Part shown: piece after piece, positions 29,290 through 42,389 of the stretch | Numbering within the stretch: position 1 is the first letter of the stretch | How the letters are laid out: every line of letters starts with the position of its first letter | IMG/VR virus record: IMGVR_UViG_3300020419_000010 | Location: 1 to 64,000 of that record | DNA length: 64,000 bases | Direction: 5' to 3' (one strand) | Source: a virus | Position numbers and translations under genes: made by a program | The notes under the pieces: model-generated | The model's database searches: none | Told to the model about the DNA's origin: nothing | The model's input: the letters and a program-made list of their open reading frames with translations, nothing else

Positions 29290-29612
29290 GTACACCTTTA
29301 TTCATTTCAGAGAGCATACCATTGGAAATCAGAGACATACTAAAAGCACTATCAGTTGGTAGTAAAGCAAGATGGCAAGGATTTGAAGGCACTATTGGAT
29401 TTGTGAGTGATGACTACATCACATTAATATTAAGAGAGATACCTGACGAGAATACCAGATATGGATATAGAACAGTCAGTCTATTAGTCAGGCGGTGTGA
29501 CTGGGAAGAACTAGAACTAGACCCAGTACACTTTAAGAGAGTGAGAGCATATAGAGGTAAGATCAATGACCACGCAGGCAATGATATGATGCCAGAGATA
29601 GACAAAAGATAA
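29286..29612 (+). CDS. Hypothetical protein, SH3-like barrel candidate
   Basis: 108 aa. Central strands GSKARWQGFEGTIGFVSDDYITLIL suggest a small SH3/KOW-like barrel, and YGYRTVSLLVRRCDWEELEL continues it. The dyad of the UvsW promoter overlaps its end. Not recognised. Confidence 0.7.
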   Translation: MSTPLFISESIPLEIRDILKALSVGSKARWQGFEGTIGFVSDDYITLILREIPDENTRYGYRTVSLLVRRCDWEELELDPVHFKRVRAYRGKINDHAGNDMMPEIDKR

Positions 29613-29656
29613 ACTGTCACAAGGGGTTGACTACTGTTCAATCTATGCACTATACT
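29599..29656 (+). promoter_or_regulatory. Dyad-promoter module 1, upstream of the UvsW-like helicase
   Basis: Dyad 29599-29620: right arm ACTGTCAC is perfect, the left arm keeps only the GACA core. Exactly 30 bp later is TATACT (29651-29656). A good -35 TTGACT (29627-29632) sits 18 bp before it, so this member could work without an activator. No CAACCAC follows. Confidence 0.65.
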
Positions 29657-29680
29657 AAGGAATATTATATTATTATTGAG

Positions 29681-30934
29681 TTGACAATTACATTACGACC
29701 ACATCAACAGCGAGCATTCACAGCAATGCGTGAGAACAACAAAGGTTCAGTTATAGTACCCACAGGTGGTGGTAAGACTATGGTTATGATTGAACACGCT
29801 CGTATGACATATTGTCAGAACTCAGTACCTAAAACTATTGTAGTGGTTGCACCTCGCATACTACTAGCAAATCAATTATGTTCAGAGTTTCTAGAACAGA
29901 ACCTAGACGGTTGGTACAATCAGTCTATCGAGGTTATACATTGCCACTCAGGAGAGACTCACTTCAAGTCAACTACTAAGACTGAGCAATTAGAGGAGTG
30001 GTATCACAATACACCTAAGAACCTTATCATATTTACTACATATCATTCATTACACAAGATTACAAATAGTCTTGATATTGAAGTTGACGTAGCATACTAT
30101 GATGAAGCACATAACTCAGTTACTAGACGATTCTTTGATGGTACTCAGGCAATGAGTCACAGATCAAGACAATCATATTTTTTCACAGCAACACCTCGTA
30201 TAGCACATCAACATGAGCGTAGTATGACTAACGAGAAAGTATATGGTAAGACACTTATCAATGTACCCGCACCAGAACTCGTAGAGCAAGGTCATATACT
30301 ACCACCAACTATCGTACCGTTTGAAGTTGATGCAACTAGAACCAGAGAAAATTGTCATGAAGTAGATGCAGAGTCAGTTGATGATATTATTGATACACTA
30401 GATGATACACACGCATCTAAGGTACTTGTAGCAGTTCCTAGTAGTGGTACGTTGCAAGGTATGATCTCTAAGACCACTCTATTGTATCGCTTGTCAGAGC
30501 GTGGATACGACACCTTACACATCACATCTAAGTTCGGTGCTATCATCAATGGTAAGAAGGTATCAAGAGAGTATTTCTTTGATACTCTTACATCATGGGG
30601 TAGAGACCCAGATAAGAAGTTTGTTATCTTTCACTATTCTATTCTTAGTGAAGGTATCAATGTTCATGGACTGACCCATTGCATCTTGTTAAGAAACCTT
30701 AACGTAGTTGAAATGGCACAGACTATTGGTAGAGTTATACGTCTAGATAAGAGAGATAGTAACAGGTTGCAGAGTGGAGAACTAACACCTTGCAAGTGGT
30801 CACTATATCATAAACCTACTGGTTACATTACAGTTCCAGTACACAAGACATCTAAGAGAACTATCAAGAGACTAGAATTAGTTTGTGATAGTATCTTTAA
30901 CAAAGGAGAACCACCACTTAGTATTGTTAGATGA
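29681..30934 (+). CDS. uvsW: SF2 helicase, UvsW-like
   Basis: 417 aa from TTG 29681 (TTG ACA ATT ACA: MTITLRPHQQRAF). Earlier in-frame starts (29627, ATG 29645) fall inside the -35/-10 of module 1, so the later start is preferred. Motifs: LRPHQQ Q-motif-like, Walker A PTGGGKT (27-33), DEAH (141-144), TATPR (169-173) and motif VI QTIGRVIRLD (about 347). T4 UvsW is a DEXH helicase that unwinds branched DNA, drives branch migration and removes R-loops, and ends origin-dependent replication. It is the only recognisable DNA-metabolism gene here and sits inside the oxygenase run, overlapping the next one by four bases. Confidence 0.9.
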   Translation: MTITLRPHQQRAFTAMRENNKGSVIVPTGGGKTMVMIEHARMTYCQNSVPKTIVVVAPRILLANQLCSEFLEQNLDGWYNQSIEVIHCHSGETHFKSTTKTEQLEEWYHNTPKNLIIFTTYHSLHKITNSLDIEVDVAYYDEAHNSVTRRFFDGTQAMSHRSRQSYFFTATPRIAHQHERSMTNEKVYGKTLINVPAPELVEQGHILPPTIVPFEVDATRTRENCHEVDAESVDDIIDTLDDTHASKVLVAVPSSGTLQGMISKTTLLYRLSERGYDTLHITSKFGAIINGKKVSREYFFDTLTSWGRDPDKKFVIFHYSILSEGINVHGLTHCILLRNLNVVEMAQTIGRVIRLDKRDSNRLQSGELTPCKWSLYHKPTGYITVPVHKTSKRTIKRLELVCDSIFNKGEPPLSIVR

Positions 30935-31512
30935 GTCAAATCTGTACATTATTTCCACAATTCTATTATCATGGAGAGGTAGAGAAACATCAACAGTTAA
31001 AAGATAAACTATTATCTGAATTAACTGTTGATAAACTATCTCAACCAAAGGAGTGGAATTGTAGTGTTCAATCATCATTTGAAACTGATAACAATTTCTC
31101 ATGGGATTATTTTTATGAGTGCATTAAACCTAACTTGTTAGATATGCACCAACAATTAAAAGGTAATCCATTGCACCAGTTTAATATGACCGAAGCATGG
31201 TTAAACAAATATGAGCGAGGAGATAGTCAAGAAGTACACACCCACATAGGTGCTGATAACACAACTTTCTCATGTTCATATTTTGCCCAATATGCCCCTA
31301 ATGACGCTAGATTTTTGTTCTATGACCCAGATCAAACTAAACATTTAGGAGAGTTCTCTAAACATTATGGTGGAGTGGTAAACACATGGTTTCCTGATGT
31401 ACAAGAAGGAGATATAATAATATTTCCCTCATGGATACATCATCAAGTAGAACCACATAGGTCAGACACCACACGCATTACAGTATCAGCAAACTTTAAA
31501 GTAACATCATGA
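30931..31512 (+). CDS. 2OG-Fe(II) oxygenase, HxH type
   Basis: 193 aa. Opening CTLFPQFYYHGEV, then EWNCSVQSSF, AWLNKYERGDSQEVHTHIGADNTTFSCSYFAQY with H103-T-H105, DIIIFPSWIHHQVEP with H171 (H170 adjacent) and TRITVSANF with R182. The WNCSV...W-LN-Y...G signature is shared with the gene at 34401, so these two are the closest pair in the window. It overlaps uvsW by ATGA and the next gene by four bases. Confidence 0.87.
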   Translation: MSQICTLFPQFYYHGEVEKHQQLKDKLLSELTVDKLSQPKEWNCSVQSSFETDNNFSWDYFYECIKPNLLDMHQQLKGNPLHQFNMTEAWLNKYERGDSQEVHTHIGADNTTFSCSYFAQYAPNDARFLFYDPDQTKHLGEFSKHYGGVVNTWFPDVQEGDIIIFPSWIHHQVEPHRSDTTRITVSANFKVTS

Positions 31513-32039
31513 CATATAGCACAAGTGACGTCAGAGTAATTGACGGATATTTCCCAGACTGGTTAATAGATGACGTAGGTAAATACTTGTCAACTGATTT
31601 CCCTATGTACTATAACAATACACCATACGGAGACTATAAGAAAGCAAGATTCTGGGGTAATACTGTTATCAGGGATAACGAGTTTACAGGAGAGACACCT
31701 TGGTATTGGTTTTTTGCTTATCTTAATGAATGTATAATGAAAGATATATGTAAAGACCTACCTTTAAGTCATATCCATAGAGTTTTAGTCAATGCTCAAC
31801 ACCCACATCAAGTGAGTCAGACACATACAGATTTTAACCATAAAGCAACAAGTATCATATACCACGCATACGGTCAGAGTGGCGATACAACATTTGCTGA
31901 CGGTCACAGAGTGCCATTTAGAGAAGGTAGGTTAGTTATATTTGATTCCCAAAAGGAACATGATGGCGAACCACCTAGTGAAGATATAAGAATAACACTA
32001 GGAGTAATTGCACCACACAAAGGTGTGTCAGTATATTAA
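31509..32039 (+). CDS. 2OG-Fe(II) oxygenase, HxD type
   Basis: 176 aa. H106-T-D108 in VSQTHTDFNHKATSIIYHAY, SGDTTFADG, then GRLVIFDSQKEHDGEPP with H151 and DIRITLGV with R161. It groups with the genes at 27393 and 28206. The next dyad-promoter module begins inside its last codons. Confidence 0.85.
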   Translation: MTYSTSDVRVIDGYFPDWLIDDVGKYLSTDFPMYYNNTPYGDYKKARFWGNTVIRDNEFTGETPWYWFFAYLNECIMKDICKDLPLSHIHRVLVNAQHPHQVSQTHTDFNHKATSIIYHAYGQSGDTTFADGHRVPFREGRLVIFDSQKEHDGEPPSEDIRITLGVIAPHKGVSVY

Positions 32040-32107
32040 GTGTCACATAGTTTGTTGAAATCGTACGACAATCATATAATATAGAACTATCAAACTATTT
32101 CAACCAC
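32025..32107 (+). promoter_or_regulatory. Dyad-promoter module 2
   Basis: Dyad 32025-32046 (GTGTCAGT-N6-AGTGTCAC, one mismatch in each arm), TATAAT at 32075-32080 (28 bp later), CAACCAC at 32101-32107, ATG at 32109. TTGTTG at 32052-32057 gives a 17-bp spacer. The stop of the preceding oxygenase lies in the dyad. It drives the three-gene operon 32109-32694. Confidence 0.8.
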
Positions 32108-32108
32108 T

Positions 32109-32240
32109 ATGTCAAGAAAAGAATTTGAACTCATGTATGATGCTTTCAAGAACTATCATATCTACATGACACCAGAACAAAAAGAATTAGCAGAACAATT
32201 ATTGAATAGAGGTTTCTACAATACAGGTGCATCAAAATGA
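32109..32240 (+). CDS. 43-aa hypothetical protein
   Basis: 43 aa (MSRKEFELMYDAF..., ends TGASK), one base after CAACCAC and with no Shine-Dalgarno. Amphipathic helices. Its stop overlaps the next ATG (ATGA). Too short for usual ORF calling; supported by the promoter module and coupling. Confidence 0.7.
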   Translation: MSRKEFELMYDAFKNYHIYMTPEQKELAEQLLNRGFYNTGASK

Positions 32241-32458
32241 TGTATCCAGATATAAGAGACTTTCATAAACTTCAAGGTAAGAAAGTTGACATCAAACTAT
32301 CATGGGAACAACTCAATGATATTATGTACTACCTAGAATGGAAACTAACAGACATATCTGAATCAGGTAATGATCTAGAATTTCCAGAGGTAGAGGAAGC
32401 AATGCAATCACTTGAAGAACAACAGTATCAAATTTACAAACAGGGGTGCGAAGCATGA
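32237..32458 (+). CDS. Small hypothetical protein
   Basis: 73 aa. The segment VDIKLSWEQLNDIMYYLEWKL resembles LTFDQVEEILDSIEW (gene 37615) and FTFDELHAFQQHVDW (gene 38926): a strand, then a helix ending in W. A possible small paralogous family. Overlaps both neighbours. Confidence 0.75.
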   Translation: MMYPDIRDFHKLQGKKVDIKLSWEQLNDIMYYLEWKLTDISESGNDLEFPEVEEAMQSLEEQQYQIYKQGCEA

Positions 32459-32694
32459 AGCATACAATCACACTAGATGACATGGAAATCACAGCACTCA
32501 ATATCCTATTAGAAGGGGAGAGTGAGATTATGGTAGAGTCTAGACTCAATACTACTGGCAATGTTAATCCAGATAGACGAGAGATCTTAATAAATCTAGT
32601 TTATACCAAAGTCTTTGATGCCTGTTGGAAAGCAGATAAAGACCCGAATAACGATTATGACTTAATGAAAAACTATGATAGGGTTCTAGCGTGA
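32455..32694 (+). CDS. Small hypothetical protein
   Basis: 79 aa from ATG 32455, which overlaps the preceding TGA; the longer reading from 32446 is less likely. MKHTITLDDMEITALNILLEGE has the same strand-plus-helix start as its neighbour; the C-terminus is Asp/Asn-rich. Module 3 begins in its final codons. Confidence 0.72.
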   Translation: MKHTITLDDMEITALNILLEGESEIMVESRLNTTGNVNPDRREILINLVYTKVFDACWKADKDPNNDYDLMKNYDRVLA

Positions 32695-32768
32695 CAGTTA
32701 TATTACTGGCACACTACTTGTTTAAATCGTAGAATTATACCTTTATAATGATTATATACTTCAACCAC
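32691..32768 (+). promoter_or_regulatory. Dyad-promoter module 3 (best dyad)
   Basis: Dyad 32691-32712 is GTGACAGT-tatatt-ACTGGCAC, one mismatch in 16. TATAAT at 32744-32749 is 31 bp on, CAACCAC at 32762-32768, ATG at 32775. No good -35 (TTGTTT at 20 bp). It heads the longest operon of the island, ten genes ending with the oxygenase at 34401. Confidence 0.85.
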
Positions 32769-32774
32769 AAAGCA

Positions 32775-33077
32775 ATGGACACAATTACAAACAAAAGACA
32801 ACTTGATGATTTTGTTGATTATGTATGGTCATTCTATGGTAGTGATGATGATTCACTCTATCCAATAGAAGGACTAACAAAGTTATTAATCCACAAAGCA
32901 ACTTCTATATACTTCAAAGCAATTATCTCATCAAGAGGTAACATCACATGGGGAGACGGAGACTCACTTGATAGAGAGCGTGTAAGAGATATATTAACTG
33001 GTGTTATGGGCATGACCATAGACTACAACCCACAAAAGGGAATTACAGTTCAAGATTTAAAGGATTTAGCACTATGA
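32775..33077 (+). CDS. Hypothetical protein
   Basis: 100 aa from ATG 32775, six bases after CAACCAC; the earlier ATG at 32748 overlaps the -10 box. Opens MDTITNKRQLDDFVDYVWSFYGSDDD; alpha/beta, acidic. First gene of its operon. Not recognised. Confidence 0.75.
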   Translation: MDTITNKRQLDDFVDYVWSFYGSDDDSLYPIEGLTKLLIHKATSIYFKAIISSRGNITWGDGDSLDRERVRDILTGVMGMTIDYNPQKGITVQDLKDLAL

Positions 33078-33205
33078 TTGAATTAACACATGATGAAATC
33101 CGTAGAGCATCTACTACTAAACTACGCAATATTCTTAAAGAGGATATTGACGTAGATCTAGATGACATGATTAACTATGAACTTTATATTAGGGAGTTTA
33201 GTTAA
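33074..33205 (+). CDS. 43-aa hypothetical protein
   Basis: MIELTHDEIRRASTTKLRNI... (43 aa), coupled by ATGA to the gene before and abutting the next ATG. Two amphipathic helices. Same length as the products at 32109 and 33429, but no obvious similarity. Confidence 0.65.
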   Translation: MIELTHDEIRRASTTKLRNILKEDIDVDLDDMINYELYIREFS

Positions 33206-33436
33206 ATGACTAGATTATGGGAATACCCAGAGGAAAATCCCTATGGAGAGTGTACTTATGATGGTAAAGTTGAAGTTTATTATAACATGACTTCATTCTT
33301 AGATGATGCAGAAGTACATCAAATTTGGGAAATTGTGGGTAAAGCAATGGACAGAAAAGGTATTGTCACAACAGACAATGAACAACTCTCAGTAAGAGTG
33401 TATGATGAAATTAATTCAGAGGACAATGATGAATAG
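33206..33436 (+). CDS. Small acidic hypothetical protein
   Basis: 76 aa, very acidic, strands VEVYYNM and LSVRVYDEI around a helix (DDAEVHQIWEIVGKAM). Starts right after the preceding TAA. Not recognised. Confidence 0.72.
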   Translation: MTRLWEYPEENPYGECTYDGKVEVYYNMTSFLDDAEVHQIWEIVGKAMDRKGIVTTDNEQLSVRVYDEINSEDNDE

Positions 33437-33560
33437 ATCAAAACTTGAACAACTCATTACTGATTTTGTAATAGAGAATAATCTTGATGCTTCATTTGTA
33501 CAACAAACAGAAGGATTAACATACGTTAGATTTACAGTAGAAGAGGACAATCATGAATAG
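33429..33560 (+). CDS. 43-aa hypothetical protein
   Basis: 43 aa, MNRSKLEQLITDFVIENN... then LTYVRFTVEEDNHE. A helix followed by two strands. Overlaps both neighbours by eight bases. Supported by coupling only. Confidence 0.6.
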   Translation: MNRSKLEQLITDFVIENNLDASFVQQTEGLTYVRFTVEEDNHE

Positions 33561-33744
33561 TAATCAGATCAAAATTGAAACATTCGATAAGTACATCATG
33601 CGAGGTGGAGATCAATCACTCTCAAATATAGAGGACTTATGTGAATATGGTTTCATGCTATTAGGTGCTGAACCAAATGATGAAAATGTATTCAATGACG
33701 TAGTTATTGGAACTATTCAGAAACTAACACAAAATTTGACTTAA
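33553..33744 (+). CDS. Small hypothetical protein
   Basis: 63 aa (MNSNQIKIETFDKYIMRGGD...). Acidic, mixed alpha/beta. Starts inside the preceding gene. Not recognised. Confidence 0.68.
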   Translation: MNSNQIKIETFDKYIMRGGDQSLSNIEDLCEYGFMLLGAEPNDENVFNDVVIGTIQKLTQNLT

Positions 33745-33762
33745 CATTATTATTAGAGTATT

Positions 33763-33957
33763 ATGGAAGTTGTTATTCAACCTATGAATCTATTTGAATC
33801 AGAAATTTGCGTAGATTGTGGAAAACCTTGTCACATGGGTTCGGGAAGATTTGTTAATCGTTATGCTTACTACGGAGACGAGGTAGAAGGTTGGCGGTGT
33901 GGCGAATGTTCAGCAGAACTAGATAGGTTACAGGAAGAAATTGGAGGATTTGAATGA
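33763..33957 (+). CDS. Small zinc-ribbon-like protein
   Basis: 64 aa with two CxxC knuckles: CVDCGKPCHMGSGRF and WRCGECSAEL, about 30 residues apart. This is a typical zinc-ribbon layout, often used to bind nucleic acid or another protein. Acidic helical tail. It overlaps the next gene by four bases. Confidence 0.75.
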   Translation: MEVVIQPMNLFESEICVDCGKPCHMGSGRFVNRYAYYGDEVEGWRCGECSAELDRLQEEIGGFE

Positions 33958-34094
33958 AACCCTATTTTTTATACATCTTAATCGGACTTGTATTTTTATC
34001 ACTCATTAGAACATCATTTAAAATTGATAGGAGTGAAAGAAACAATAGATTATACGAGGAATTATGCAAAGTAGATCAGGAGTATTGTAAATGA
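33954..34094 (+). CDS. 46-aa single-pass membrane protein
   Basis: MKPYFLYILIGLVFLSLIRT is a transmembrane segment at residues 3-19, followed by a charged tail (KIDRSERNNRLYEELCKVD). Coupled at both ends by ATGA. A candidate inner-membrane peptide acting early in infection; function unknown. Confidence 0.7.
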   Translation: MKPYFLYILIGLVFLSLIRTSFKIDRSERNNRLYEELCKVDQEYCK

Positions 34095-34303
34095 TAACAC
34101 CAGAATCTAACGGTTACTTCACTAAAACAAGTGATAAACAATACGATAGAAACAAGTATAAGATTAATTGTAAAGACGGTAGTTCGCTCATTACATACGA
34201 TTATAATGATGTTATAGAGAACTATTGGCATAAATCTAACTTAATAGAGAATGTAGAAGTACTGGACATTAAACCTAAGAGATCAGGCGGTAAGGGATTT
34301 TGA
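34091..34303 (+). CDS. Small basic hypothetical protein
   Basis: 70 aa, Lys/Asn/Tyr-rich (TKTSDKQYDRNKYKINCKDG), mostly beta, ending KPKRSGGKGF. Overlaps its neighbours by four bases. Not recognised. Confidence 0.68.
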   Translation: MITPESNGYFTKTSDKQYDRNKYKINCKDGSSLITYDYNDVIENYWHKSNLIENVEVLDIKPKRSGGKGF

Positions 34304-34401
34304 AATCAGATACATTACTAAGGATACTCAAAGTTGTTAGAGTCAAGAAGGTTAAGTATAAACCTACTCGTAAACACCATAATATGCACTTATACGGTTA
34401 A
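34300..34401 (+). CDS. 33-aa basic peptide (TTG start)
   Basis: TTG start with AAGGG six bases upstream. Product MKSDTLLRILKVVRVKKVKY... then PTRKHHNMHLYG, strongly basic. Its stop overlaps the ATG of the oxygenase at 34401. Support is the ribosome site and tight packing; it could be only a coupling device. Confidence 0.45.
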   Translation: MKSDTLLRILKVVRVKKVKYKPTRKHHNMHLYG

Positions 34402-34970
34402 TGAAACATACATTATTTCCCATACAATACTACCATTGCAAGATACATAACCATAAAGAGTTATTTGGTTCATTATTAGATAGTGCTAAACATTTACTCA
34501 AAGATGCTCAGGGTAAATGGAATTGTAGTGTTTATACAACATATTTTGAAGAGCAAGATGTAGTAGATGCTGATGAACTAGGCAAGGTTCTCGCACCCTA
34601 TTTGTATCAATATTTCCCCACACATTGCAACATAGATTTAATAAACTCATGGTTAAACTTATATAATAGTGGACACACACAAGAACCACACCATCATGTA
34701 AATTTCCCTGACTTTATTAATTTTAGTGGAGTAATATTCATACAGTATAAGAAGGGAGAAGATGCTAACTTTTATTTTGAGAATTTAAACTTAGAGCATA
34801 CAGTACTAGGTTACACACATATATTCGAGCAAGATCAGATATTAACACCTGATATAACGGAAGGCGATTTGTTGTTATTTCCCTCGTTTGTACGACATGG
34901 AGTAAAGACTCAGAAATTTGATAATAACAGATTAACGCTCAGTTTCAATCTTGCTGTGACACCTATGTAA
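34401..34970 (+). CDS. 2OG-Fe(II) oxygenase, HxH type
   Basis: 189 aa. Opening HTLFPIQYYHCKI, WNCSVYTTYF, SWLNLYNSGHTQEPHHHVNFPDFINFSG with H97-H-H99, DLLLFPSFVRHGV with H166 and NRLTLSFN with R177. Closest layout to the gene at 30931 (shared WNCSV and SWLN-Y). It closes the ten-gene operon and is thus co-transcribed with tiny genes and a zinc ribbon. Module 4 overlaps its stop. Confidence 0.86.
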   Translation: MKHTLFPIQYYHCKIHNHKELFGSLLDSAKHLLKDAQGKWNCSVYTTYFEEQDVVDADELGKVLAPYLYQYFPTHCNIDLINSWLNLYNSGHTQEPHHHVNFPDFINFSGVIFIQYKKGEDANFYFENLNLEHTVLGYTHIFEQDQILTPDITEGDLLLFPSFVRHGVKTQKFDNNRLTLSFNLAVTPM

Positions 34971-35028
34971 GTGTCACATAGTTTGACACAAGTGCTAGAC
35001 GTATGATTATAATGGATATATCAACCAC
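34956..35028 (+). promoter_or_regulatory. Dyad-promoter module 4
   Basis: Dyad 34956-34977 (GTGACACC-N6-AGTGTCAC; the outer hexamers GTGACA/TGTCAC are perfect), 30 bp to TATAAT at 35008-35013, CAACCAC at 35022-35028, ATG at 35036. TTGACA at 34983-34988 with a 19-bp spacer. Confidence 0.85.
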
Positions 35029-35035
35029 AGATAAC

Positions 35036-35626
35036 ATGATTTTCAACTTCTTAGAAACAAGTTTCCAAAACGTAAGATCATCTAAGAGAACTGACCAGTT
35101 GCATGATGCACTACTAACTCAGTTCCTAGAAACATATCCAGAACTAAAATCATTACATTGGAGACAAGAGTATAAACTACAAAAAGACGCATTTGGCGGT
35201 ACATTCGATATTGATATTGTAGGACTTGATGACAATGGTTATATCAAGTATGCAATTCTTGCTAAGGCAATCAACAGCAATGTCAACAAGAATATCAAGA
35301 ACTATGCAAATACTACCATAGGCGAAGCATCAAGACTATTCTATGCACCTATCGTAAATGAAACAATCGAAAAGATATTATTTGTTTCATTACTACCTAG
35401 AACAGCACCTAGATTCAATAAGAAGGGAGAAGTTGTAGGATTTGATGACGTCAAGTCAGCGAAGGATAGAACTAATATCAAACCAGTACTAAAAACACAG
35501 TATGGTAACAAAGTACAATCTATTGATCTATTCTATACTATTGATGATGTAAGATCAGGATTAACTAACGAGGACTATAATACAATAACACCTAGTTTTA
35601 TTGATTCATTTGTATTCGAGGTTTAA
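35036..35626 (+). CDS. Hypothetical protein, possible PD-(D/E)XK-like fold
   Basis: 196 aa from ATG 35036, eight bases after CAACCAC; the ATG at 35003 overlaps the -10 box. Residues about 40-75 (WRQEYKLQKDAFGGTFDIDIVG...IKYAILAKAI) follow the order E - GxFDIDI - hydrophobic strand with K, which recalls divergent restriction-endonuclease-like folds. The last catalytic D/E-x-K is A-K here, so activity is doubtful. A second part (EKILFVSLLPRTAPRF, QSIDLFYTIDD) is alpha/beta. Low-confidence fold, real gene. Confidence 0.72.
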   Translation: MIFNFLETSFQNVRSSKRTDQLHDALLTQFLETYPELKSLHWRQEYKLQKDAFGGTFDIDIVGLDDNGYIKYAILAKAINSNVNKNIKNYANTTIGEASRLFYAPIVNETIEKILFVSLLPRTAPRFNKKGEVVGFDDVKSAKDRTNIKPVLKTQYGNKVQSIDLFYTIDDVRSGLTNEDYNTITPSFIDSFVFEV

Positions 35627-35628
35627 TC

Positions 35629-35799
35629 ATGAAAACATTTGTAGCAACATTCTCAGAGTATAAAGCAATCTGGTTACAGAGGTGTGATGAAGATGACCGC
35701 ACCATACCAACATTTGAGCAGTATTTACATGCCACTAAACTAGGCAGAGACTACTCAGCAATCTATGATAAGTACGGTTTCTTAAAGGAGGACTATTAA
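35629..35799 (+). CDS. 56-aa hypothetical protein
   Basis: MKTFVATFSEYKAIWLQRCD... then TFEQYLHATKLGRDYSAI. Helical. Starts two bases after the preceding stop and abuts the next ATG, with AAAGGAGG of the following ribosome site inside its 3' end. Not recognised. Confidence 0.68.
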   Translation: MKTFVATFSEYKAIWLQRCDEDDRTIPTFEQYLHATKLGRDYSAIYDKYGFLKEDY

Positions 35800-36033
35800 A
35801 TGACATACAAAACATTTGAGGAAATTTCAATAGGAGACATTGTATCATACAATCGGGTATGGGGATATGTTTTAGCAAGATTTGATGACGTTAAACAAAT
35901 TAAAATAGTAGATGAATATACTGACGATAAGATCATGGTAGATTATAGAAGAGTGCAGTTATTACAGAAATTCGATCTCAATACTACCTATGAAGATGAT
36001 ATGTTGAGACAAGACCCCAGACGGTTAAAATAG
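35800..36033 (+). CDS. Small hypothetical protein, SH3-like
   Basis: 77 aa with a strong upstream AAAGGAGG. EEISIGDIVSYNRVWGYVLARFDDV resembles a small barrel with the GDIV turn often seen in SH3-like proteins. C-terminal basic tail. Not recognised. Confidence 0.72.
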   Translation: MTYKTFEEISIGDIVSYNRVWGYVLARFDDVKQIKIVDEYTDDKIMVDYRRVQLLQKFDLNTTYEDDMLRQDPRRLK

Positions 36034-36170
36034 TGTCACACACATTATAGTAATCGACATTCACTCGACTATAATGAATACATGGGATAAGTTAGTACTC
36101 ACACCTCTAAGGTCAAAGTTGAGTGAAGCACCTCTTGACTATCCCTAATCAATTTAATTAATTCAACCAC
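36018..36170 (+). promoter_or_regulatory. Dyad-promoter module 5 with long leader
   Basis: Dyad 36018-36039 (left arm 5/8, right AGTGTCAC), exactly 30 bp to TATAAT at 36070-36075. CAACCAC at 36164-36170 is 88 bases downstream instead of about 12, so the leader is unusually long. TTGACT at 36135-36140 may mark a second, internal promoter nearer the gene. ATG at 36172. Confidence 0.7.
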
Positions 36171-36171
36171 A

Positions 36172-36372
36172 ATGAATGCAAACAAATTAAAGCAAGTCAG
36201 ACTTTCAGTATTACTTGATAAGTTAACTGAACTAGGTTGGGATTATTCTTGTAATAGAATGTCTAGATCTGGTATGCAAATCTATGATGAGATTATGCAA
36301 TATGTTGGAGTTCTAGATGCTAACGAGCATTGGAATGAAGATGTTTATGCTGATTCTAACGGAGACTGGTAG
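36172..36372 (+). CDS. Small hypothetical protein
   Basis: 66 aa, starting one base after CAACCAC with no Shine-Dalgarno. Helical start (NANKLKQVRLSVLLDKLTELGW), acidic end. Not recognised. Confidence 0.7.
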   Translation: MNANKLKQVRLSVLLDKLTELGWDYSCNRMSRSGMQIYDEIMQYVGVLDANEHWNEDVYADSNGDW

Positions 36373-36373
36373 T

Positions 36374-36697
36374 ATGAACTTCACAGATAGAGAACTAGGA
36401 TTAATCGCTCATAAACTAGGTATGGCATATTGCGACCTAGACACACCCAATAGTGGTAACACATGGACATTTGAGAGATATGGTAAAGACGCAGTTGTAG
36501 GAGCATTTAAGAAGGTTCAAGAAGAAATTAAGAACAGAGGATTAAATGCTGACACACTTGAACTAAAACGTCAACCGTACCGTAGTCCAGTTACAAAAGA
36601 GTCCGCCTTTGGACTTGATAGAGACTTTGAGGTGCTAGGATTATATCGTAAAGATCAATCCAAGATCAGGAAAAGACCAACCACATTTTATTGCTAG
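36374..36697 (+). CDS. Hypothetical protein
   Basis: 107 aa from ATG 36374, right after the preceding stop; an earlier frame start at 36317 lies inside that gene. MNFTDRELGLIAHKLGMAYCD, basic C-terminus (YRKDQSKIRKRPTTFYC). Not recognised. Confidence 0.7.
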   Translation: MNFTDRELGLIAHKLGMAYCDLDTPNSGNTWTFERYGKDAVVGAFKKVQEEIKNRGLNADTLELKRQPYRSPVTKESAFGLDRDFEVLGLYRKDQSKIRKRPTTFYC

Positions 36698-36699
36698 TC

Positions 36700-36921
36700 A
36701 TGACCAAAAGAGAACTAACAGATCAACAGTTTAAAGACTTAAAAGAGTTATATGTTGATAGAATCGTTGACAATATGTCAATGAAGGATTTAATCATCTA
36801 TGCTACCGAGGATATGCAGAAGTGGATAGACTCACTAACATTCAATGATGCAATGGTAGAAATAGAGGAGTATTTTGATGAGTATTTTACAGACACTATC
36901 GAGGAAGTAATCAATGGTTAA
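36700..36921 (+). CDS. Small acidic hypothetical protein
   Basis: 73 aa from ATG 36700 (MTKRELTDQQFKDLKELYVD); a TTG at 36691 is less likely. Acidic, all-helical (DAMVEIEEYFDEYFTDTIEEV). Overlaps the next gene by eight bases. Confidence 0.7.
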   Translation: MTKRELTDQQFKDLKELYVDRIVDNMSMKDLIIYATEDMQKWIDSLTFNDAMVEIEEYFDEYFTDTIEEVING

Positions 36922-37177
36922 ACAACAGTATGTTATGCAGTTCACAACAAGAACTGACTATTACCAAAGTTTTGAAATTTCATTTGATGAATTTTGGGAA
37001 GATTATTGTAAAGAGTGTGATTTTGATGAAGAGGAGTCAGATCTCTCAATGTGGGAGAATAGAGACTTGATGGAAATTGCATGGGATTTCATACTCAAAA
37101 ATCCAGACAAGTATCGTTATGGAAATTCTGATTATGATAATGAAGAGATCATGAACTACAACTTACAGAGGATTTAA
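36914..37177 (+). CDS. Small acidic hypothetical protein
   Basis: 87 aa, strongly acidic (FDEFWEDYCKECDFDEEESDL). Such acidic small proteins are common among early phage inhibitors, sometimes as DNA mimics; no direct evidence here. Confidence 0.7.
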   Translation: MVKQQYVMQFTTRTDYYQSFEISFDEFWEDYCKECDFDEEESDLSMWENRDLMEIAWDFILKNPDKYRYGNSDYDNEEIMNYNLQRI

Positions 37178-37180
37178 ACA

Positions 37181-37393
37181 ATGACTGAACAGATTTATAG
37201 AGTACTGGTATCTAAACAAATAGAATACTCAGTTGAAGTTGAAGCGGAGAATCCACAGGAAGCAATGGAACTAATAGAAGAAGAGATACAAGAGAATGAA
37301 GGTATCTACAACTATGAGATCGAAGCATCATGTGAAGAGTTCAATGTAACATCAGCAGAACTACATGATGGATACTATGTGACAGCATCATAA
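37181..37393 (+). CDS. Small hypothetical protein, DpnD/PcfM-like pattern
   Basis: 70 aa. YRVLVSKQIEYSVEVEAENPQEAMELIEEEI follows the strand - strand - EAENPxEA helix pattern of small DpnD/PcfM-like proteins. Last gene of its operon; module 6 overlaps its stop. Family link tentative. Confidence 0.7.
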   Translation: MTEQIYRVLVSKQIEYSVEVEAENPQEAMELIEEEIQENEGIYNYEIEASCEEFNVTSAELHDGYYVTAS

Positions 37394-37456
37394 GTGTCTA
37401 CTTTTTGTTTAAATTGCCCTTATAGTCCATTATAATAATATTAATGATTCAACCAC
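37379..37456 (+). promoter_or_regulatory. Dyad-promoter module 6
   Basis: Dyad 37379-37400 (GTGACAGC-N6-AGTGTCTA), exactly 30 bp to TATAAT at 37431-37436, CAACCAC at 37450-37456, ATG at 37461. The -10 upstream block TTGCCCTTATAGTCCATTA is nearly the same as in module 8. No proper -35. Confidence 0.8.
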
Positions 37457-37460
37457 TATC

Positions 37461-37622
37461 ATGAAGAAATTAAACATCACAGTCACATCAGGTCAGTACA
37501 ACCTATTATGGTTAATGATCGCAGAGCATGGCGAACAGATCGTTGCTAATTCCAATGGAGACATGGATATGCAGACTTTCGATAATCTATTTGATGCAGT
37601 ATGTCAGGCGGATTATGTGTAA
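37461..37622 (+). CDS. 53-aa hypothetical protein
   Basis: MKKLNITVTSGQYNLLWLMI... then EQIVANSNGDMDMQTFDNLF. Starts four bases after CAACCAC. Helix-rich after an N-terminal strand. Its end overlaps the next gene by eight bases. Confidence 0.68.
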   Translation: MKKLNITVTSGQYNLLWLMIAEHGEQIVANSNGDMDMQTFDNLFDAVCQADYV

Positions 37623-37845
37623 TAGAGGAATTCCACCAATAAGGAAAACAAGTCCTAGAAAGTACTTAGAGGGAGATCACTACCTCGATTATAAACTTAC
37701 TTTCGATCAAGTAGAAGAAATACTTGATTCAATCGAGTGGATAGCAGAGGAGAATGAAGAACACATGAAGGTTCTAATATCCGCCTATTACGCTCTAAGA
37801 GACCAAAACGGTTACACTATACCAAAAGAATGGAGGAACGGTTAA
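37615..37845 (+). CDS. Small hypothetical protein
   Basis: 76 aa from ATG 37615; the longer frame from 37528 lies inside the preceding gene. DYKLTFDQVEEILDSIEWIAEE resembles genes 32237 and 38926. Ends TIPKEWRNG, where the sequence also encodes the GGAGG site of the next gene. Confidence 0.7.
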   Translation: MCNRGIPPIRKTSPRKYLEGDHYLDYKLTFDQVEEILDSIEWIAEENEEHMKVLISAYYALRDQNGYTIPKEWRNG

Positions 37846-38111
37846 TGAATTTTAAAGAAGAGATTTATGAAATAGCATTCGGAGACAATGCTATAAACAG
37901 AGATTTTGATGAACTCGAAGTAATCGAGAGAATACAATCATATAGTGATGGGAGTAACCCAGTACTAATAGAGGAAGCATGGAATGAAGCAGAGGAACTA
38001 AACACTTCACTCAGAGAACTATCAGATCAGGACTTGATAGAATGCAGACAGGCATTAATTGATAGAACTAATCTTATTATGTCAGCACTTGATGAGATAG
38101 GAGTAGAATAA
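37845..38111 (+). CDS. Small acidic hypothetical protein
   Basis: 88 aa from ATG 37845, overlapping the preceding TAA by one base and preceded by GGAGG. Acidic, all-helical. Not recognised. Confidence 0.72.
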   Translation: MNFKEEIYEIAFGDNAINRDFDELEVIERIQSYSDGSNPVLIEEAWNEAEELNTSLRELSDQDLIECRQALIDRTNLIMSALDEIGVE

Positions 38112-38359
38112 TGTCATATTGTGATGTATGTGGCAACTATGATGAGTCACATATCGAAGATATTAAAGAGAATATCAAAACAGTTCCAGATGAGGACTAT
38201 CAACCAGATTTATATTATTATTGGGATAGTTGGACAGGACTATGTGATGAGGATTATGACTGGCGAGAGAAATATCCAAAAGTTGACTGTATGTGTGAGA
38301 TCTGTTTTGATATAGCAAATCAAAATAAGGAAATCAAGTGGGAGTGTACCAGTTTATGA
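38111..38359 (+). CDS. Small zinc-ribbon-like acidic protein
   Basis: 82 aa with CDVCG (residues 4-8) and CMCEIC near residue 60, plus many acidic and aromatic residues between. The paired cysteines suggest a zinc site. It starts on the last base of the preceding stop; module 7 overlaps its end. Confidence 0.7.
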   Translation: MSYCDVCGNYDESHIEDIKENIKTVPDEDYQPDLYYYWDSWTGLCDEDYDWREKYPKVDCMCEICFDIANQNKEIKWECTSL

Positions 38360-38423
38360 GGTGTCACACATATTTCCCATTTAATGTAATTATCGGTTAT
38401 ATTAAATAATATAAGACAACCAC
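38346..38423 (+). promoter_or_regulatory. Dyad-promoter module 7
   Basis: Dyad 38346-38367 (GTACCAGT-N6-GGTGTCAC), exactly 30 bp to TATATT at 38398-38403, CAACCAC at 38417-38423, ATG at 38431. No -35 match. Confidence 0.72.
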
Positions 38424-38430
38424 AGAAATT

Positions 38431-38628
38431 ATGAGCAGTTTAACTAATACAGCAATCTTTGAAGATATTGCAGACAAGTGGGATATAGTAGAATGCACCA
38501 ACGGAGTTGGAGTATTTGAACTCACTTATGAAGGAGAGCATACAGGAGACACATTCGACACCGAAGCAGAGTGTTGGCACTTCATTAAGCACGCAGTTTA
38601 CAATGAATTTGATTCAAGGTGTGAGTGA
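38431..38628 (+). CDS. Small acidic hypothetical protein
   Basis: 65 aa (MSSLTNTAIFEDIADKWDIVE...). FELTYEGEHTGDTFDTEAECWHFIKHA is strand then helix. Seven bases after CAACCAC. A one-gene operon between two modules. Confidence 0.7.
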   Translation: MSSLTNTAIFEDIADKWDIVECTNGVGVFELTYEGEHTGDTFDTEAECWHFIKHAVYNEFDSRCE

Positions 38629-38642
38629 GACAGTTGAGACTT

Positions 38643-38719
38643 GTGACAGTCTATATACTGACCACACACCGCCCACTTTGCCCTTTTAGTCCATTACAAT
38701 AGAAACATACAACAACCAC
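38643..38719 (+). promoter_or_regulatory. Dyad-promoter module 8
   Basis: Dyad 38643-38664 (perfect left arm GTGACAGT, right arm ACTGACCA), exactly 30 bp to TACAAT at 38695-38700, CAACCAC at 38713-38719, ATG at 38726. Confidence 0.78.
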
Positions 38720-38725
38720 AGAAAA

Positions 38726-38926
38726 ATGCCACAATTCAAATATACAATCGAAACACCAAAATTATTCAAAAGTGAGGTTTTTACAGATGATTTACAGAAA
38801 GCAGAAGATTTATGTTTTGACATGGGTCTTGACTACGAGTATTCTTGTGTTAGAGATAATGCCACAGGCGAAATTGTTTACGAAATGGGGAATGTTATGG
38901 GTTTAGTTGAGGAGGGCATAGTATAA
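38726..38926 (+). CDS. Small hypothetical protein
   Basis: 66 aa (MPQFKYTIETPKLFKSEVF...). Beta-alpha-beta, acidic. Six bases after CAACCAC. Stop overlaps the next ATG. Confidence 0.72.
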   Translation: MPQFKYTIETPKLFKSEVFTDDLQKAEDLCFDMGLDYEYSCVRDNATGEIVYEMGNVMGLVEEGIV

Positions 38927-39180
38927 TGTCAGCATTTAATAGACTCAATCATCTAAAAGAGTTAACAACACCAGTTATAGACGATAATGCAGGCACTATC
39001 TCAGTCACATTTACATTTGACGAGTTACACGCATTTCAGCAACACGTTGATTGGTGCATTTATGAGCAAGATCAACCAGTAAATGATAATTTACAGTCAT
39101 TTATTGATAAATTACTCTATAATAAGAGAAATACAGCACCTAAAATCAAGCAAGTTAATCTACCGAAGGAGGAATGGTAA
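38926..39180 (+). CDS. Small hypothetical protein
   Basis: 84 aa. ISVTFTFDELHAFQQHVDWCIYE is the third occurrence of the strand-helix-W pattern seen in genes 32237 and 37615. Basic C-terminus with a ribosome site (GGAGG) for the next gene. Confidence 0.72.
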   Translation: MSAFNRLNHLKELTTPVIDDNAGTISVTFTFDELHAFQQHVDWCIYEQDQPVNDNLQSFIDKLLYNKRNTAPKIKQVNLPKEEW

Positions 39181-39181
39181 A

Positions 39182-39421
39182 ATGAGTTTTGAAACATGGT
39201 TAAAACAATGCCCTGACCCTAGTAGATTCGCAACTGAATATGTTGATATTAGGTCAGATATTCAGAACGTAATTGATACTTATGACCGCCCAGAGTGGAA
39301 GAAGATCAACTTTAATAAGGATAAATTAGATGATCTAGTTTATCAAGTTTACGATCAAGACTGGTCAGAGTGGAACGATTTTATTGCTTATTTAATAGAC
39401 AATGAGGTTACATGGTCATGA
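39182..39421 (+). CDS. Small hypothetical protein
   Basis: 79 aa from ATG 39182 behind GGAGG (MSFETWLKQCPDPSRFATEYVD); the frame start at 39083 lies inside the preceding gene. Asp/Trp-rich. ATGA overlap with the next gene. Confidence 0.72.
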   Translation: MSFETWLKQCPDPSRFATEYVDIRSDIQNVIDTYDRPEWKKINFNKDKLDDLVYQVYDQDWSEWNDFIAYLIDNEVTWS

Positions 39422-39585
39422 ATGAAAAGTTATTCAAACAAATAAGATTTCCTACAAGAGAGAAATTACTTGAATATCGTTATGAACAGTTCCAAGAGTG
39501 GTTAAATAAATGCCCACTTGTTGTAACAGATTATCAGGATTTTACAGATCGTTTTCAAGTTACTTTCGATTTGGAAGCAGACTAA
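39418..39585 (+). CDS. 55-aa hypothetical protein
   Basis: MNEKLFKQIRFPTREKLLEY... then FQEWLNKCPLV, ending DRFQVTFDLEAD. Basic helix, acidic end. EWLNKCP recalls TWLKQCP of the preceding gene. Last gene of its operon. Confidence 0.68.
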   Translation: MNEKLFKQIRFPTREKLLEYRYEQFQEWLNKCPLVVTDYQDFTDRFQVTFDLEAD

Positions 39586-39777
39586 ATACAATCGGCATGA
39601 GGTGGGTACACTATACGATTCCCTATCTGTAAGTCCGATATGATACGAAATCGTATCACTAGGCAGTAAGCATACGAACTTTAAAACACCAACTTTAATT
39701 AGATGTGGCAGTTGCAATCTTACATAAGACCTAATCAAAGACCTTACCATAAAGAGAATTAAATTTGTTATGTGGTT
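39586..39777 (+). other. Gene-free spacer with palindrome and possible structured RNA
   Basis: The longest gene-free stretch of the island (to 39858 including module 9). It holds a near-perfect palindrome TGATACGA-AA-TCGTATCA at 39641-39658, a TATACG-like box near 39613, and the 5' half of a long hairpin (39738 onward). No ORF of credible length on either strand. It could encode a small RNA or hold an operator. Confidence 0.4.
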
Positions 39778-39816
39778 GTGACAGTTTAATTACTTACACA
39801 TGGTGAGGTCTTTTTT
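39738..39816 (+). terminator. Long nested hairpin with T run, terminator-like
   Basis: AAGACCTTACCAT (39738-39750) pairs with ATGGTGAGGTCTT (39800-39812): 13 consecutive pairs with one G-U, followed by T through 39816. An inner stem AATTAAA/TTTAATT (39757-39763 with 39785-39791) nests inside. The dyad of module 9 lies in the loop, so hairpin and operator overlap. It may terminate the upstream operon or be a structured RNA. Confidence 0.5.
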
Positions 39817-39852
39817 CACCTTTATATGATTATAATAGAATCAAACAACCAC
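39778..39852 (+). promoter_or_regulatory. Dyad-promoter module 9
   Basis: Dyad 39778-39799 (perfect left arm GTGACAGT, right arm ACTTACAC), 31 bp to TATAAT at 39831-39836, CAACCAC at 39846-39852, ATG at 39859 with AGGA in between. The region between dyad and -10 contains the T run of the hairpin and a GGTGA/TCACC stem. Confidence 0.78.
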
Positions 39853-39858
39853 AGGATT

Positions 39859-40227
39859 ATGAGCAAATTAAACACTTATCAGCAATTAGTAGTAGATGCA
39901 ATCAATACATACGGAAGCGGAGACTGGAAAAATTGGATCTCAGTTCATTATGTTCATGAGTCAGGTTACTCAAATATTATATGTCATTCTGAAATAATAG
40001 GTAAAGTATTCTATGAGTATAAGAAGAGAGACCTAGACATGGAAGAGTACACAGAAATAATAATGGATAAGACTAAGAAAGCACCAGTTGATGTAATTTT
40101 CATGATGGATAGAAAAGGAGCAGAGGAGAGTTTTAACGAAACACAGATAACCAGATACAGAAATATGTTTGTAAAGCAAGGTTTCACAGTTGTTAATGTA
40201 CATAAGAAAGCATTAGCACAATATTAA
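39859..40227 (+). CDS. Hypothetical protein
   Basis: 122 aa from ATG 39859; the ATG at 39826 precedes the -10 and is excluded. MSKLNTYQQLVVDAINTYGSGDW; alpha/beta with a basic C-terminus (VKQGFTVVNVHKKALAQY). One-gene operon. Not recognised. Confidence 0.74.
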   Translation: MSKLNTYQQLVVDAINTYGSGDWKNWISVHYVHESGYSNIICHSEIIGKVFYEYKKRDLDMEEYTEIIMDKTKKAPVDVIFMMDRKGAEESFNETQITRYRNMFVKQGFTVVNVHKKALAQY

Positions 40228-40246
40228 TCAAAATACAGGTGTGAGT

Positions 40247-40321
40247 GTGACAGTTATATTAGTGTCACTTCGCACCAGAAAACACCTCTATATTCGCTAT
40301 AATATAGACATAAGCAACCAC
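40247..40321 (+). promoter_or_regulatory. Dyad-promoter module 10
   Basis: Dyad 40247-40268 is GTGACAGT-tatatt-AGTGTCAC, one mismatch in 16, with the same N6 as module 3. 29 bp to TATAAT at 40298-40303, CAACCAC at 40315-40321, ATG at 40337 behind AGGA. Confidence 0.85.
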
Positions 40322-40336
40322 ACAGGAATTTTTAAA

Positions 40337-40663
40337 ATGAGAATCATTGAAAAGAACATGAACAGAGCAATCAGAGGTCAGAGAAATTGGGCATCTGGTA
40401 ATACAACTGTATTCACTACTGACAATGGTTTAGAGTCAACAGTATATCTACATGGCAATCATATCGCAACTTTCGATCATGTACATCAGAATCTTTATAT
40501 CTTTGATGGCGGTTGGCAGTCTAACACCACTAAGTCTAGACTCAATGCACTTTGCTATGAGTTCAACACAGGTTTCAAAGTTATTCAACGTGACTGGACA
40601 TGGTACTTAGTCAACTTCCTAGGCACTAAGCAGTTATTCAACTCAGGCATGGAGGTTGCATAA
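40337..40663 (+). CDS. Hypothetical protein
   Basis: 108 aa from ATG 40337; the frame start at 40241 is upstream of the promoter. MRIIEKNMNRAIRGQRNWASGNTTVF, then beta-rich (STVYLHGNHIATFDHVHQNLYIFDGGW) and KSRLNALCYEF. Basic N-terminus. First of three genes. Not recognised. Confidence 0.74.
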   Translation: MRIIEKNMNRAIRGQRNWASGNTTVFTTDNGLESTVYLHGNHIATFDHVHQNLYIFDGGWQSNTTKSRLNALCYEFNTGFKVIQRDWTWYLVNFLGTKQLFNSGMEVA

Positions 40664-40842
40664 TGTCAAATTTAGAATATGATGCAATGGCAGTAATGGA
40701 GCAAATACACATGGCAGAATCTAGGCATATGCAGATGGGTGCTTTATGTTCCTATCTACTACAATATCCTGATATGACAATCAGAGATTTCTTTGCAATG
40801 GCAAGTAAGGAATTAGAAGAGCAGGAGGAAGATTTATGTTAA
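40663..40842 (+). CDS. 59-aa hypothetical protein
   Basis: MSNLEYDAMAVMEQIHMAES... then MTIRDFFAMASKELEEQEED. Helical, Met-rich. Starts on the last base of the preceding stop and overlaps the next gene by seven. Confidence 0.68.
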   Translation: MSNLEYDAMAVMEQIHMAESRHMQMGALCSYLLQYPDMTIRDFFAMASKELEEQEEDLC

Positions 40843-41033
40843 GAAGAGAAAAGTCATATTACTCAATCTTTGAACCAGTAAGGGAACTAATCGAAGAATA
40901 CGCAAACGATCATTTTTCAACATTTGGATACTATCCCGCCACAGTTCGATTATATCCACCAGTAGGCGAAGGATTACCGAGGGAATTAAGTTATGAAGAA
41001 TACCAGTTTATCATAACTGGAAAGGAAGTATAA
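40836..41033 (+). CDS. Small hypothetical protein
   Basis: 65 aa (MLRREKSYYSIFEPVRELIE...). Preceded by GGAGGAAG. FGYYPATVRLYPPVGEGLPREL is a Pro-rich middle. Not recognised. Confidence 0.7.
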   Translation: MLRREKSYYSIFEPVRELIEEYANDHFSTFGYYPATVRLYPPVGEGLPRELSYEEYQFIITGKEV

Positions 41034-41062
41034 CACATTTTCAGAGTATTTCCCAATCGAGT

Positions 41063-41149
41063 GTGACGATTTTTTTAGTTGCACACCGCACCAGAGAAAG
41101 CACCCCAAACAGGTGCTTTTTATGGTACAATTAATATATAAGCAACCAC
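41063..41149 (+). promoter_or_regulatory. Dyad-promoter module 11 with terminator inserted
   Basis: Dyad 41063-41084 (GTGACGAT-N6-AGTTGCAC, degenerate), TACAAT at 41126-41131, CAACCAC at 41143-41149, ATG at 41161. Spacing is 41 bp rather than 30 because a terminator stem lies between; the difference is about one helical turn. Shares the CGCACCAGA block with module 10. Confidence 0.65.
41097..41121 (+). terminator. Rho-independent terminator
   Basis: AAAGCACC (41097-41104), loop of seven, GGTGCTTT (41112-41119), then T through 41121. It would end the operon 40337-41033, and the next -10 box lies immediately after it. Confidence 0.75.
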
Positions 41150-41517: not shown

Positions 41518-41763
41518 ATGATTTTTAACTATGATGACTGTACATTTGAAGCATACGAGAGAGACGGATATATGTATTACAGAGAGGTTTCCCAAGGCGG
41601 AGACCCATTATACGACTTTATTAAGTTAGAGTGGCATCAGTTCGATTTTATCAACACCACAGAGGACTTAGTAGAGATATTAGAGGATATGGAGTCATGT
41701 TTCGATAATGTCATAAATACGCATGACCAGACAGAGCAAACACCTTATAGTTTTTATCATTAA
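41518..41763 (+). CDS. Small acidic hypothetical protein
   Basis: 81 aa (MIFNYDDCTFEAYERDGYMY...), behind AAGGAG. Acidic, aromatic-rich. Stop overlaps the next ATG. Confidence 0.74.
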   Translation: MIFNYDDCTFEAYERDGYMYYREVSQGGDPLYDFIKLEWHQFDFINTTEDLVEILEDMESCFDNVINTHDQTEQTPYSFYH

Positions 41764-42389
41764 TGAGCGACTCTACAATTAACTTATCCGATAGTCTCGA
41801 AACAGCGATTGATTTTGAGACTTATGGATTATTCATGATACCAGTTACAAAGTATTCAGCAACCGCACTTGTTGATGATGTTTTGAAGTGGGCAAGAAAT
41901 CAGGATTTTGTTAAACATGATAGGCAGGCAATTTCCCATAACATTCAACAAATCGGAGAGACTAACCAAATTTTAACAGATATACCAGAGTTAAAGGCAT
42001 TACTGTTAGAAGTGGCAAGAAAGCATAATGAAAGCGGATTAAACTATGCTAGTAATTTTGAGATAAGCGACTGTTACCTAGAAGTTGCACATCAGGGAGC
42101 GATTTATGCACCACATGAACACAGTAATTGCTTATTCTCAGGCACTTATTTTATATCATACGAGAAAGATGCACACAGTTATTTGAAATTCAAACGTAAT
42201 ACAATTTCAAATACATATCCTATTATGATGCTACCATACGAGAGCATGACCGCATTCAATTTACAGGAAGCGACAATCCCATACGCAGCAGGGGATATTG
42301 TGATTTATCCAAGTAACCTAACACATGGTTTTGACAGCAATCCAACAGACAATCGGATAACATTAACCTTTAATGTGATACCTATTTAA
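41763..42389 (+). CDS. 2OG-Fe(II) oxygenase, HxH type
   Basis: 208 aa. GLFMIPVTKY start, SDCYLEVAHQGAIYAPHEHSNCLFSGTYFISY with H118-E-H120 in the family position before SG, GDIVIYPSNLTHGF with H188, NRITLTFN with R198. The N-terminal 25 residues are an extra extension. It is the second oxygenase placed last in an operon of tiny early genes, after the one at 34401. Confidence 0.87.
   Translation: MSDSTINLSDSLETAIDFETYGLFMIPVTKYSATALVDDVLKWARNQDFVKHDRQAISHNIQQIGETNQILTDIPELKALLLEVARKHNESGLNYASNFEISDCYLEVAHQGAIYAPHEHSNCLFSGTYFISYEKDAHSYLKFKRNTISNTYPIMMLPYESMTAFNLQEATIPYAAGDIVIYPSNLTHGFDSNPTDNRITLTFNVIPI

Follow-up and report, generated by a model that had tools for sequence, protein, structure and literature searches.

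A dyad at near-constant distance from the -10 box as a putative operator of early promoters in T4-like cyanophages

The closest described system comes from the same phage group. In Doron et al. (2016), a novel regulatory element reportedly controls early-gene transcription in Syn9, P-TIM40 being similar, and the element is said to be conserved among T4-like cyanophages. The early regions of both phages bear dyads of the type analysed here, in degenerate form in Syn9. The middle promoters of T4 are also related in design, in that a sigma-70 -10 box is combined with a poor -35 region and a protein site upstream; however, the MotA box is found around -30, does not form a 24-bp dyad and requires MotA together with AsiA. 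T4-like cyanophages lack promoters of the T4 middle type and motA and/or asiA (PMC5780444, citing earlier literature), and a study of pelagimyophages reports that the approaches applied to middle and late promoters of cyanophages did not work there (PMC7029224). Operators of the CRP/FNR family, such as those of CRP and NtcA, are likewise palindromes 5' of a promoter, and the outer TGTGA/TCACA of the cyanophage dyad resemble the arms of the CRP site. The CRP arms, however, are separated by N6 whereas the cyanophage dyad reads TGTGA-N14-TCACA, and the NtcA operator, GTA-N8-TAC, is not the dyad consensus. With consensus arms 14 bp apart, the element thus differs in layout from the operators of both CRP and NtcA, as a preliminary description of this locus had held. 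As in the PeSL cassettes of T4-like phages, early promoters may here lie between gene modules, and some spacers hold a stem-loop that resembles a terminator; unlike in PeSLs, what is shared here is a DNA dyad 5' of the promoter, free of RNA covariation. No description of the motif was found in the other literature searched, a set that stands apart from the original Syn9 and PeSL papers.

The window, that is, the whole stretch of DNA analysed, covers 64 kb of a virus record that is 92,432 bases long, and is a cyanomyovirus fragment. T4-like cyanophage genes follow each other across it in the known order, from a helicase gene (29627) through a series of short ORFs to a gp25 homologue (50251) and a gp6-like gene (50666). 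A helicase-to-gp25 interval packed with short ORFs is also annotated in Syn9, P-TIM40, S-SSM7, P-RSM4, P-SSM2 and S-PM2. By its appearance, the short-ORF region that holds the eleven dyads is an early region, and its genes appear to be early, not middle, ones. The ORF map fits a layout in which each dyad would head a separate short operon.

All eleven dyads and their -10 boxes lie on the plus strand. Dyad 1 (29598-29621), with a degenerate left arm, heads the helicase gene (ORF 29627-30934, the real start of which is probably further in) and is followed at an offset of 30 by TATACT (29651-29656). Dyad 2 (TGTGTCAGTATATTAAGTGTCACA, 32024-32047) holds the stop codon of ORF 31509-32039 in its centre and precedes TATAAT at 32075-32080, while dyad 3 (CGTGACAGTTATATTACTGGCACA, 32690-32713), whose left arm includes the TGA of ORF 32446-32694, precedes TATAAT at 32744-32749 and heads a T4-GC82-family gene that begins at about 32775. 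Dyads 4 to 7 span the ends of upstream ORFs, namely ORF 34401-34970 for dyad 4 (TGTGACACCTATGTAAGTGTCACA, 34955-34978), ORF 35800-36033 for dyad 5 (36017-36040, left arm degenerate), ORF 37181-37393 for dyad 6 (37378-37401) and ORF 38111-38359 for dyad 7 (38345-38368). Their -10 boxes are, in this order, TATAAT at 35008-35013, TATAAT at 36070-36075, which leaves a leader of about 95 nt ahead of ORF 36172, TATAAT at 37431-37436 and TATATT at 38398-38403. Dyad 8 (38642-38665; TACAAT, 38695-38700) lies 14 bp beyond the end of ORF 38431-38628, and the spacer of dyad 9 (39777-39800; TATAAT, 39831-39836) holds the terminator-like GGTGAGGTCTTTTTTCACC. Dyad 10 (TGTGACAGTTATATTAGTGTCACT, 40246-40269; TATAAT, 40298-40303) heads a T4-GC637-family gene from about 40337. 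The spacer of dyad 11 (41062-41085; TACAAT, 41126-41131) is 11 bp longer and contains GCACC...GGTGC with a T run behind it; the excess of its 41-bp gap over the mode, 11 bp, corresponds to about one helical turn.

The stop codons of six upstream ORFs fall in the dyad centre (ORF end 13-15 bp past the dyad start), and a seventh upstream ORF terminates within the left arm, which is therefore partly coding. The right, promoter-proximal arm is the better conserved one, and the weaker conservation of the left arm is explained by the upstream genes that end in the dyad centre or left arm. Directly 5' of the start codon, the leaders behind dyads 2-11 carry the element CAACCAC on the same strand within 32101-41149 (at 32101, 32762, 35022, 36164, 37450, 38417, 38713, 39846, 40315 and 41143); it occurs in 21 copies across the 92-kb contig, these ten each downstream of a dyad promoter.

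The preliminary description had listed these sites as 22-mers, all eleven of which were found in place, together with their distances to the -10 boxes. We searched for the best TATAAT-like hexamer 10-60 bp 3' of each dyad and obtained offsets from the dyad end of 30, 28, 31, 30, 30, 30, 12, 30, 31, 29 and 41 bp. The outlier at offset 12, dyad 7 (22-mer at 38346), has a TATATT of equal quality at 30, and the original list of gaps stands at this site as well. Nine of the eleven best matches fell inside one 4-bp band. In the comparison with shuffled sequence that had been suggested along with the sites, a comparable regularity was never seen (nine reached in 0/2000 dinucleotide shuffles; mean 2.4 in the band, maximum 6). 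A symmetrised matrix built from the eleven sites and scanned over the 92-kb contig returned the eleven dyads as its top eleven positions, the next scores being 11.6 (33347, within a CDS) and 9.5, and in a leave-one-out scan of the contig 10 of the 11 sites ranked first and 29599 ranked fifth. This matrix check, also proposed at the outset, recovered the dyads both in the contig and in other cyanomyoviruses. Single shuffled contigs gave top matrix scores of 9.9-20.1; because these peaks cover the scores of the weakest dyads, the latter are not significant individually and rest on position and orthology, not on score alone. For the site at 29599, support comes from orthologues of the helicase gene, which a dyad likewise precedes in P-RSM4, S-SSM7, P-TIM40, S-PM2, P-SSM2 and Syn9. 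Matrix scores of up to 20 in shuffled contigs are also what could be cited for a pattern due to chance or composition. The joint spacing and the conservation of the element at hundreds of loci leave that reading a negligible probability, and the shuffles together with the spacing in IMG/VR (below) already refute it.

The dyad-promoter element is a hallmark of T4-like cyanophages and not peculiar to the window phage. Its consensus is TGTGMCAST-N6-ASTGKCACA, followed after a gap of 28-30 bp by TATAAT, and it is present in eight of eight T4-like cyanophages (Syn9, P-TIM40, P-HM2, S-PM2, P-SSM2, S-SSM7, P-RSM4 and S-CRM01). Composites of a dyad and a spaced -10 box, counted on both strands with the eleven-site matrix so that palindromes may count twice, numbered 23 in P-SSM2, 17 in S-SSM7, 16 in P-RSM4, 14 in S-PM2, 12 in P-TIM40, 11 in P-HM2, 9 in S-CRM01 and 4 in Syn9, with 0-2 in each shuffled genome. 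The weak score of Syn9 reflects the more degenerate form of its motif, in which the right arm is often AGTGTCCAC; two of its four matches lie outside the early region. Read directly, the upstream regions of Syn9 show dyad-like sites ahead of several early genes and of the helicase gene, and composite or degenerate sites occur in the helicase-gp25 regions of both Syn9 and P-TIM40, whose dyad-carrying genes we take, in line with the literature, to be early. In an inverted operon of P-HM2 the composite lies on the minus strand, the orientation of the dyad following that of the operon. The dyad is kept ahead of orthologous genes in different phages (helicase, GC82 family and GC637 family), and in some phages a few sites lie outside the interval, ahead of cobS, a peptidase gene and an HNH gene. 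The matrix scan of both strands found zero composites in T4, P-SSP7 and Ma-LMM01, and pelagiphage HTVC008M was at chance level (3 matches vs 0-2 in shuffles, none of them promoter-like).

The exact degenerate pattern was found in >120 stretches of IMG/VR, and with further scans added, the matches listed held 489 distinct dyads. Among these, an exact TATAAT stood 28, 29 and 30 bp past the end of the 24-mer in 9, 58 and 34 independent flank clusters, respectively, and at nearly all other distances in a handful of clusters or fewer, the set having been fetched in part with patterns that included TATAAT in several distance windows. The clean estimate comes from a dyad-only fetch, in which, among the matches listed, 86 of the 105 exact TATAAT boxes lay at 28-30 bp. 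A separate spacing class at one additional helical turn, 39-41 bp, was considered and set aside as weak, several of its members being divergent TTGACA-TATAAT promoters across the dyad. Among the matches listed, 252 IMG/VR loci carried the composite; 244 of them had a protein match to reference phages, and the best match was a T4-like cyanophage in all but two. Across the genomes of 84,980 species of bacteria and archaea, the exact composite was confined to contigs from cyanophages or resembling them. One such contig, filed under Nonlabens, shares 98% identity with P-TIM40 across a tested stretch of 8 kb, and among TMED113 MAG contigs with the composite the single stretch tested gave a partial match to cyanophages.

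Since the dyads overlap or come after upstream stop codons, they might work at the RNA level and provide the upstream transcript with a hairpin at its 3' end, a terminator or a processing site. Annotated Rho-independent terminators of S-CRM01 overlap or adjoin some dyads, and certain window dyads fold well (40247, z=-5.3; 41063, z=-3.4); taken together, however, the window sites give uneven RNA folding results (z=-5.3 to +0.06), several of them folding no better than shuffles. Covariation between the arms was evaluated at two variable position pairs in 141 independent promoters, one per cluster. No association was found between M5 and K20 (odds ratio 0.68, p=0.34, Fisher), and the association between S8 and S17 (odds ratio 7.65, p=3e-7) runs against base pairing, in favour of mismatched arms. 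Because compensatory change between the arms is missing, the dyad is better understood as a DNA operator than as an RNA hairpin; this agrees with the earlier remark that half-sites are conserved without matching changes in the other arm. Terminator-like hairpins do exist as separate elements in the spacer (11 of 141 clusters vs 1.2 in shuffles), and as the spacing is kept despite them, the spacing itself appears to be under selection. A role in RNA would make the distance to the -10 box irrelevant, and we consider such a role very unlikely. The positions of the units, between short ORF modules of phage-variable content and in some cases with a terminator-like hairpin, would also suit a dyad-promoter unit that serves chiefly as a PeSL-like recombination cassette at module borders. 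PeSLs have been discussed for S-PM2, where the authors judged them an unlikely cause (PMC4503421). Recombination, however, requires neither a 28-30 bp spacing nor a separately conserved operator, and a cassette is compatible with regulation rather than a true alternative to it; as the chief function of the unit we give it scant credence.

In the promoter itself, the -35 region carries at most 0.27 bits per position vs 0.8-1.7 in the -10 box. The -35 boxes had been called mostly poor, and they are; a consensus-type -35 exists at some sites, for example TTGACA at dyad 4. With the -10 box taken to start at -12, the dyad centre computes to about -53, next to the -54 given before. The centre near -53, the strict spacing and the weak -35 region favour an activator, and the dyads are probably DNA operators at which a bound factor activates early operons from SigA-type promoters; that activation rather than repression is at work we infer from geometry. 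The phage regulon acting through a DNA site that the preliminary description had proposed is borne out by fixed spacing at hundreds of sites, by the lack of arm covariation and by the dyad of the inverted P-HM2 operon.

Repressors typically bind palindromic sites, and a phage-encoded repressor that silences early genes at the onset of middle transcription could in principle use the dyad. Cyanophage early transcripts fall off later. In the dark, expression of the P-HM2 early genes is highest at 30 min and declines thereafter (PMC5082946), which counts in the same direction. The site, however, ends about 29 bp 5' of the -10 box, outside the core promoter, and the -35 region is weak; moreover, repression needs no spacing fixed to about 1 bp, and the ORF profile described below revealed no DNA-binding protein common to the phages. 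Altogether, a repressor seems unlikely as the explanation of the dyad.

In the activation mechanism that we favour, a dimeric or tetrameric transcription factor would bind the dyad at about -53, upstream of a core promoter of the host sigma-70 (SigA) type with a good -10 and a weak -35. The bound factor would most likely contact RNA polymerase, for example the alpha-CTD or sigma, and this contact would turn on the early takeover operons as well as the few genes elsewhere (cobS, the peptidase gene and HNH in some phages). As nearly all early promoters seem to bear the dyad, the factor would probably be present at time zero, being either host-encoded or virion-injected. Each arm resembles GTGNCAC, a near-palindrome in its own right, and the factor might therefore bind as a tetramer.

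Candidates for the factor were sought among phage proteins. MotA (PF09114) was found in T4 only, with none in the eight cyanophages or the window fragment, and neither a ribbon-helix-helix domain nor a CRP-type HTH was detected in the cyanophages. An AbrB/MazE-like protein (PF04014) is encoded at 44298-44489, near the dyad region; it was rejected as the dyad regulator, being found in six records and missing from the dyad-bearing S-SSM7, P-HM2 and S-CRM01. In a phylogenetic profile, P-HM2 ORFs were selected that all eight cyanophages share and four outgroups lack; the products that could be recognised on inspection, among them MazG, ThyX and a baseplate-like protein, included no obvious transcription factor. 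The profile was sequence-based, mixed real and spurious ORFs, and was of a kind that fast-evolving proteins would escape. That perfect composites are missing from host genomes speaks mildly against a host regulator, the scan being one for the exact form only. We tentatively suggest that a pre-existing factor, either a recruited host protein or a virion-injected one, might bind the tandem GTGNCAC-type dyad at -53 and activate the whole early regulon in Prochlorococcus and Synechococcus. This would be a takeover switch unlike that of T4, operated by a protein whose family has so far not been counted among the DNA-binding ones.

The dyad of the window is very probably the element that Doron et al. 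(2016) reportedly described for the early genes of Syn9 and P-TIM40. Putative additions to that known element, all measured here, are its two-arm 24-bp form, the spacing law, the covariation test with its lack of covariation, and the absence from host genomes. The hosts of T4-like cyanophages are the sea's most abundant photosynthetic cells, and the question is how transcription starts in hosts so different from one another. The operator, its measured spacing law and the sites in P-TIM40, P-HM2, S-PM2 and S-SSM7 make the regulator directly searchable, and the element can be used as a sequence marker of early promoters in uncultured cyanophages.

Taken downstream of the early promoters that carry a palindromic dyad, the motif CAACCAC lies directly 5' of the start codon in ten of eleven cases (window 32101-41149). 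At the promoter of site 36018 (named by its dyad start), the start codon is about 95 nt further on and CAACCAC still adjoins it, so the motif looks like a translation leader. Leaders resembling AACAAACA are present in other cyanophages.

In one family of sites (L008:19743 and many IMG/VR metagenomic loci), divergent promoters flank the dyad. The promoter on the other side, of consensus TTGACA-N17-TATAAT, lies at 39-41 bp and points away from the dyad, perhaps reading toward a non-coding RNA.

Two small proteins are encoded further downstream. Among the nine records with dyads that were searched, six share a conserved AbrB/MazE-like protein (PF04014; 44298-44489 in the window). A short, very basic protein, KKTRQGxxxxTKxSATSRNxAKKxYRGQG (50059-50211), adjoins gp25 and is present in seven cyanophage records, this fragment included, as well as in the pelagiphage HTVC008M. 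By reading of the sequence, the 915-aa product of 8791-11538 looks like a glycine dehydrogenase (GcvP), here in a phage fragment, and resemblance to annotated neighbours in cyanophages Syn9 and P-TIM40 points to 2OG-Fe(II) oxygenase-like ORFs (4051-4629, 25380-26060, 30931-31512, 34401-34970, 41763-42389 and others) and a tryptophan-halogenase-like ORF (23326-24894).

The 188-kb contig NZ_RMVE01000006.1 (loci L130 and L134), assigned to Nonlabens xiamenensis, is 98% identical to P-TIM40 across the 8 kb tested; it is apparently a contaminant in that genome assembly.
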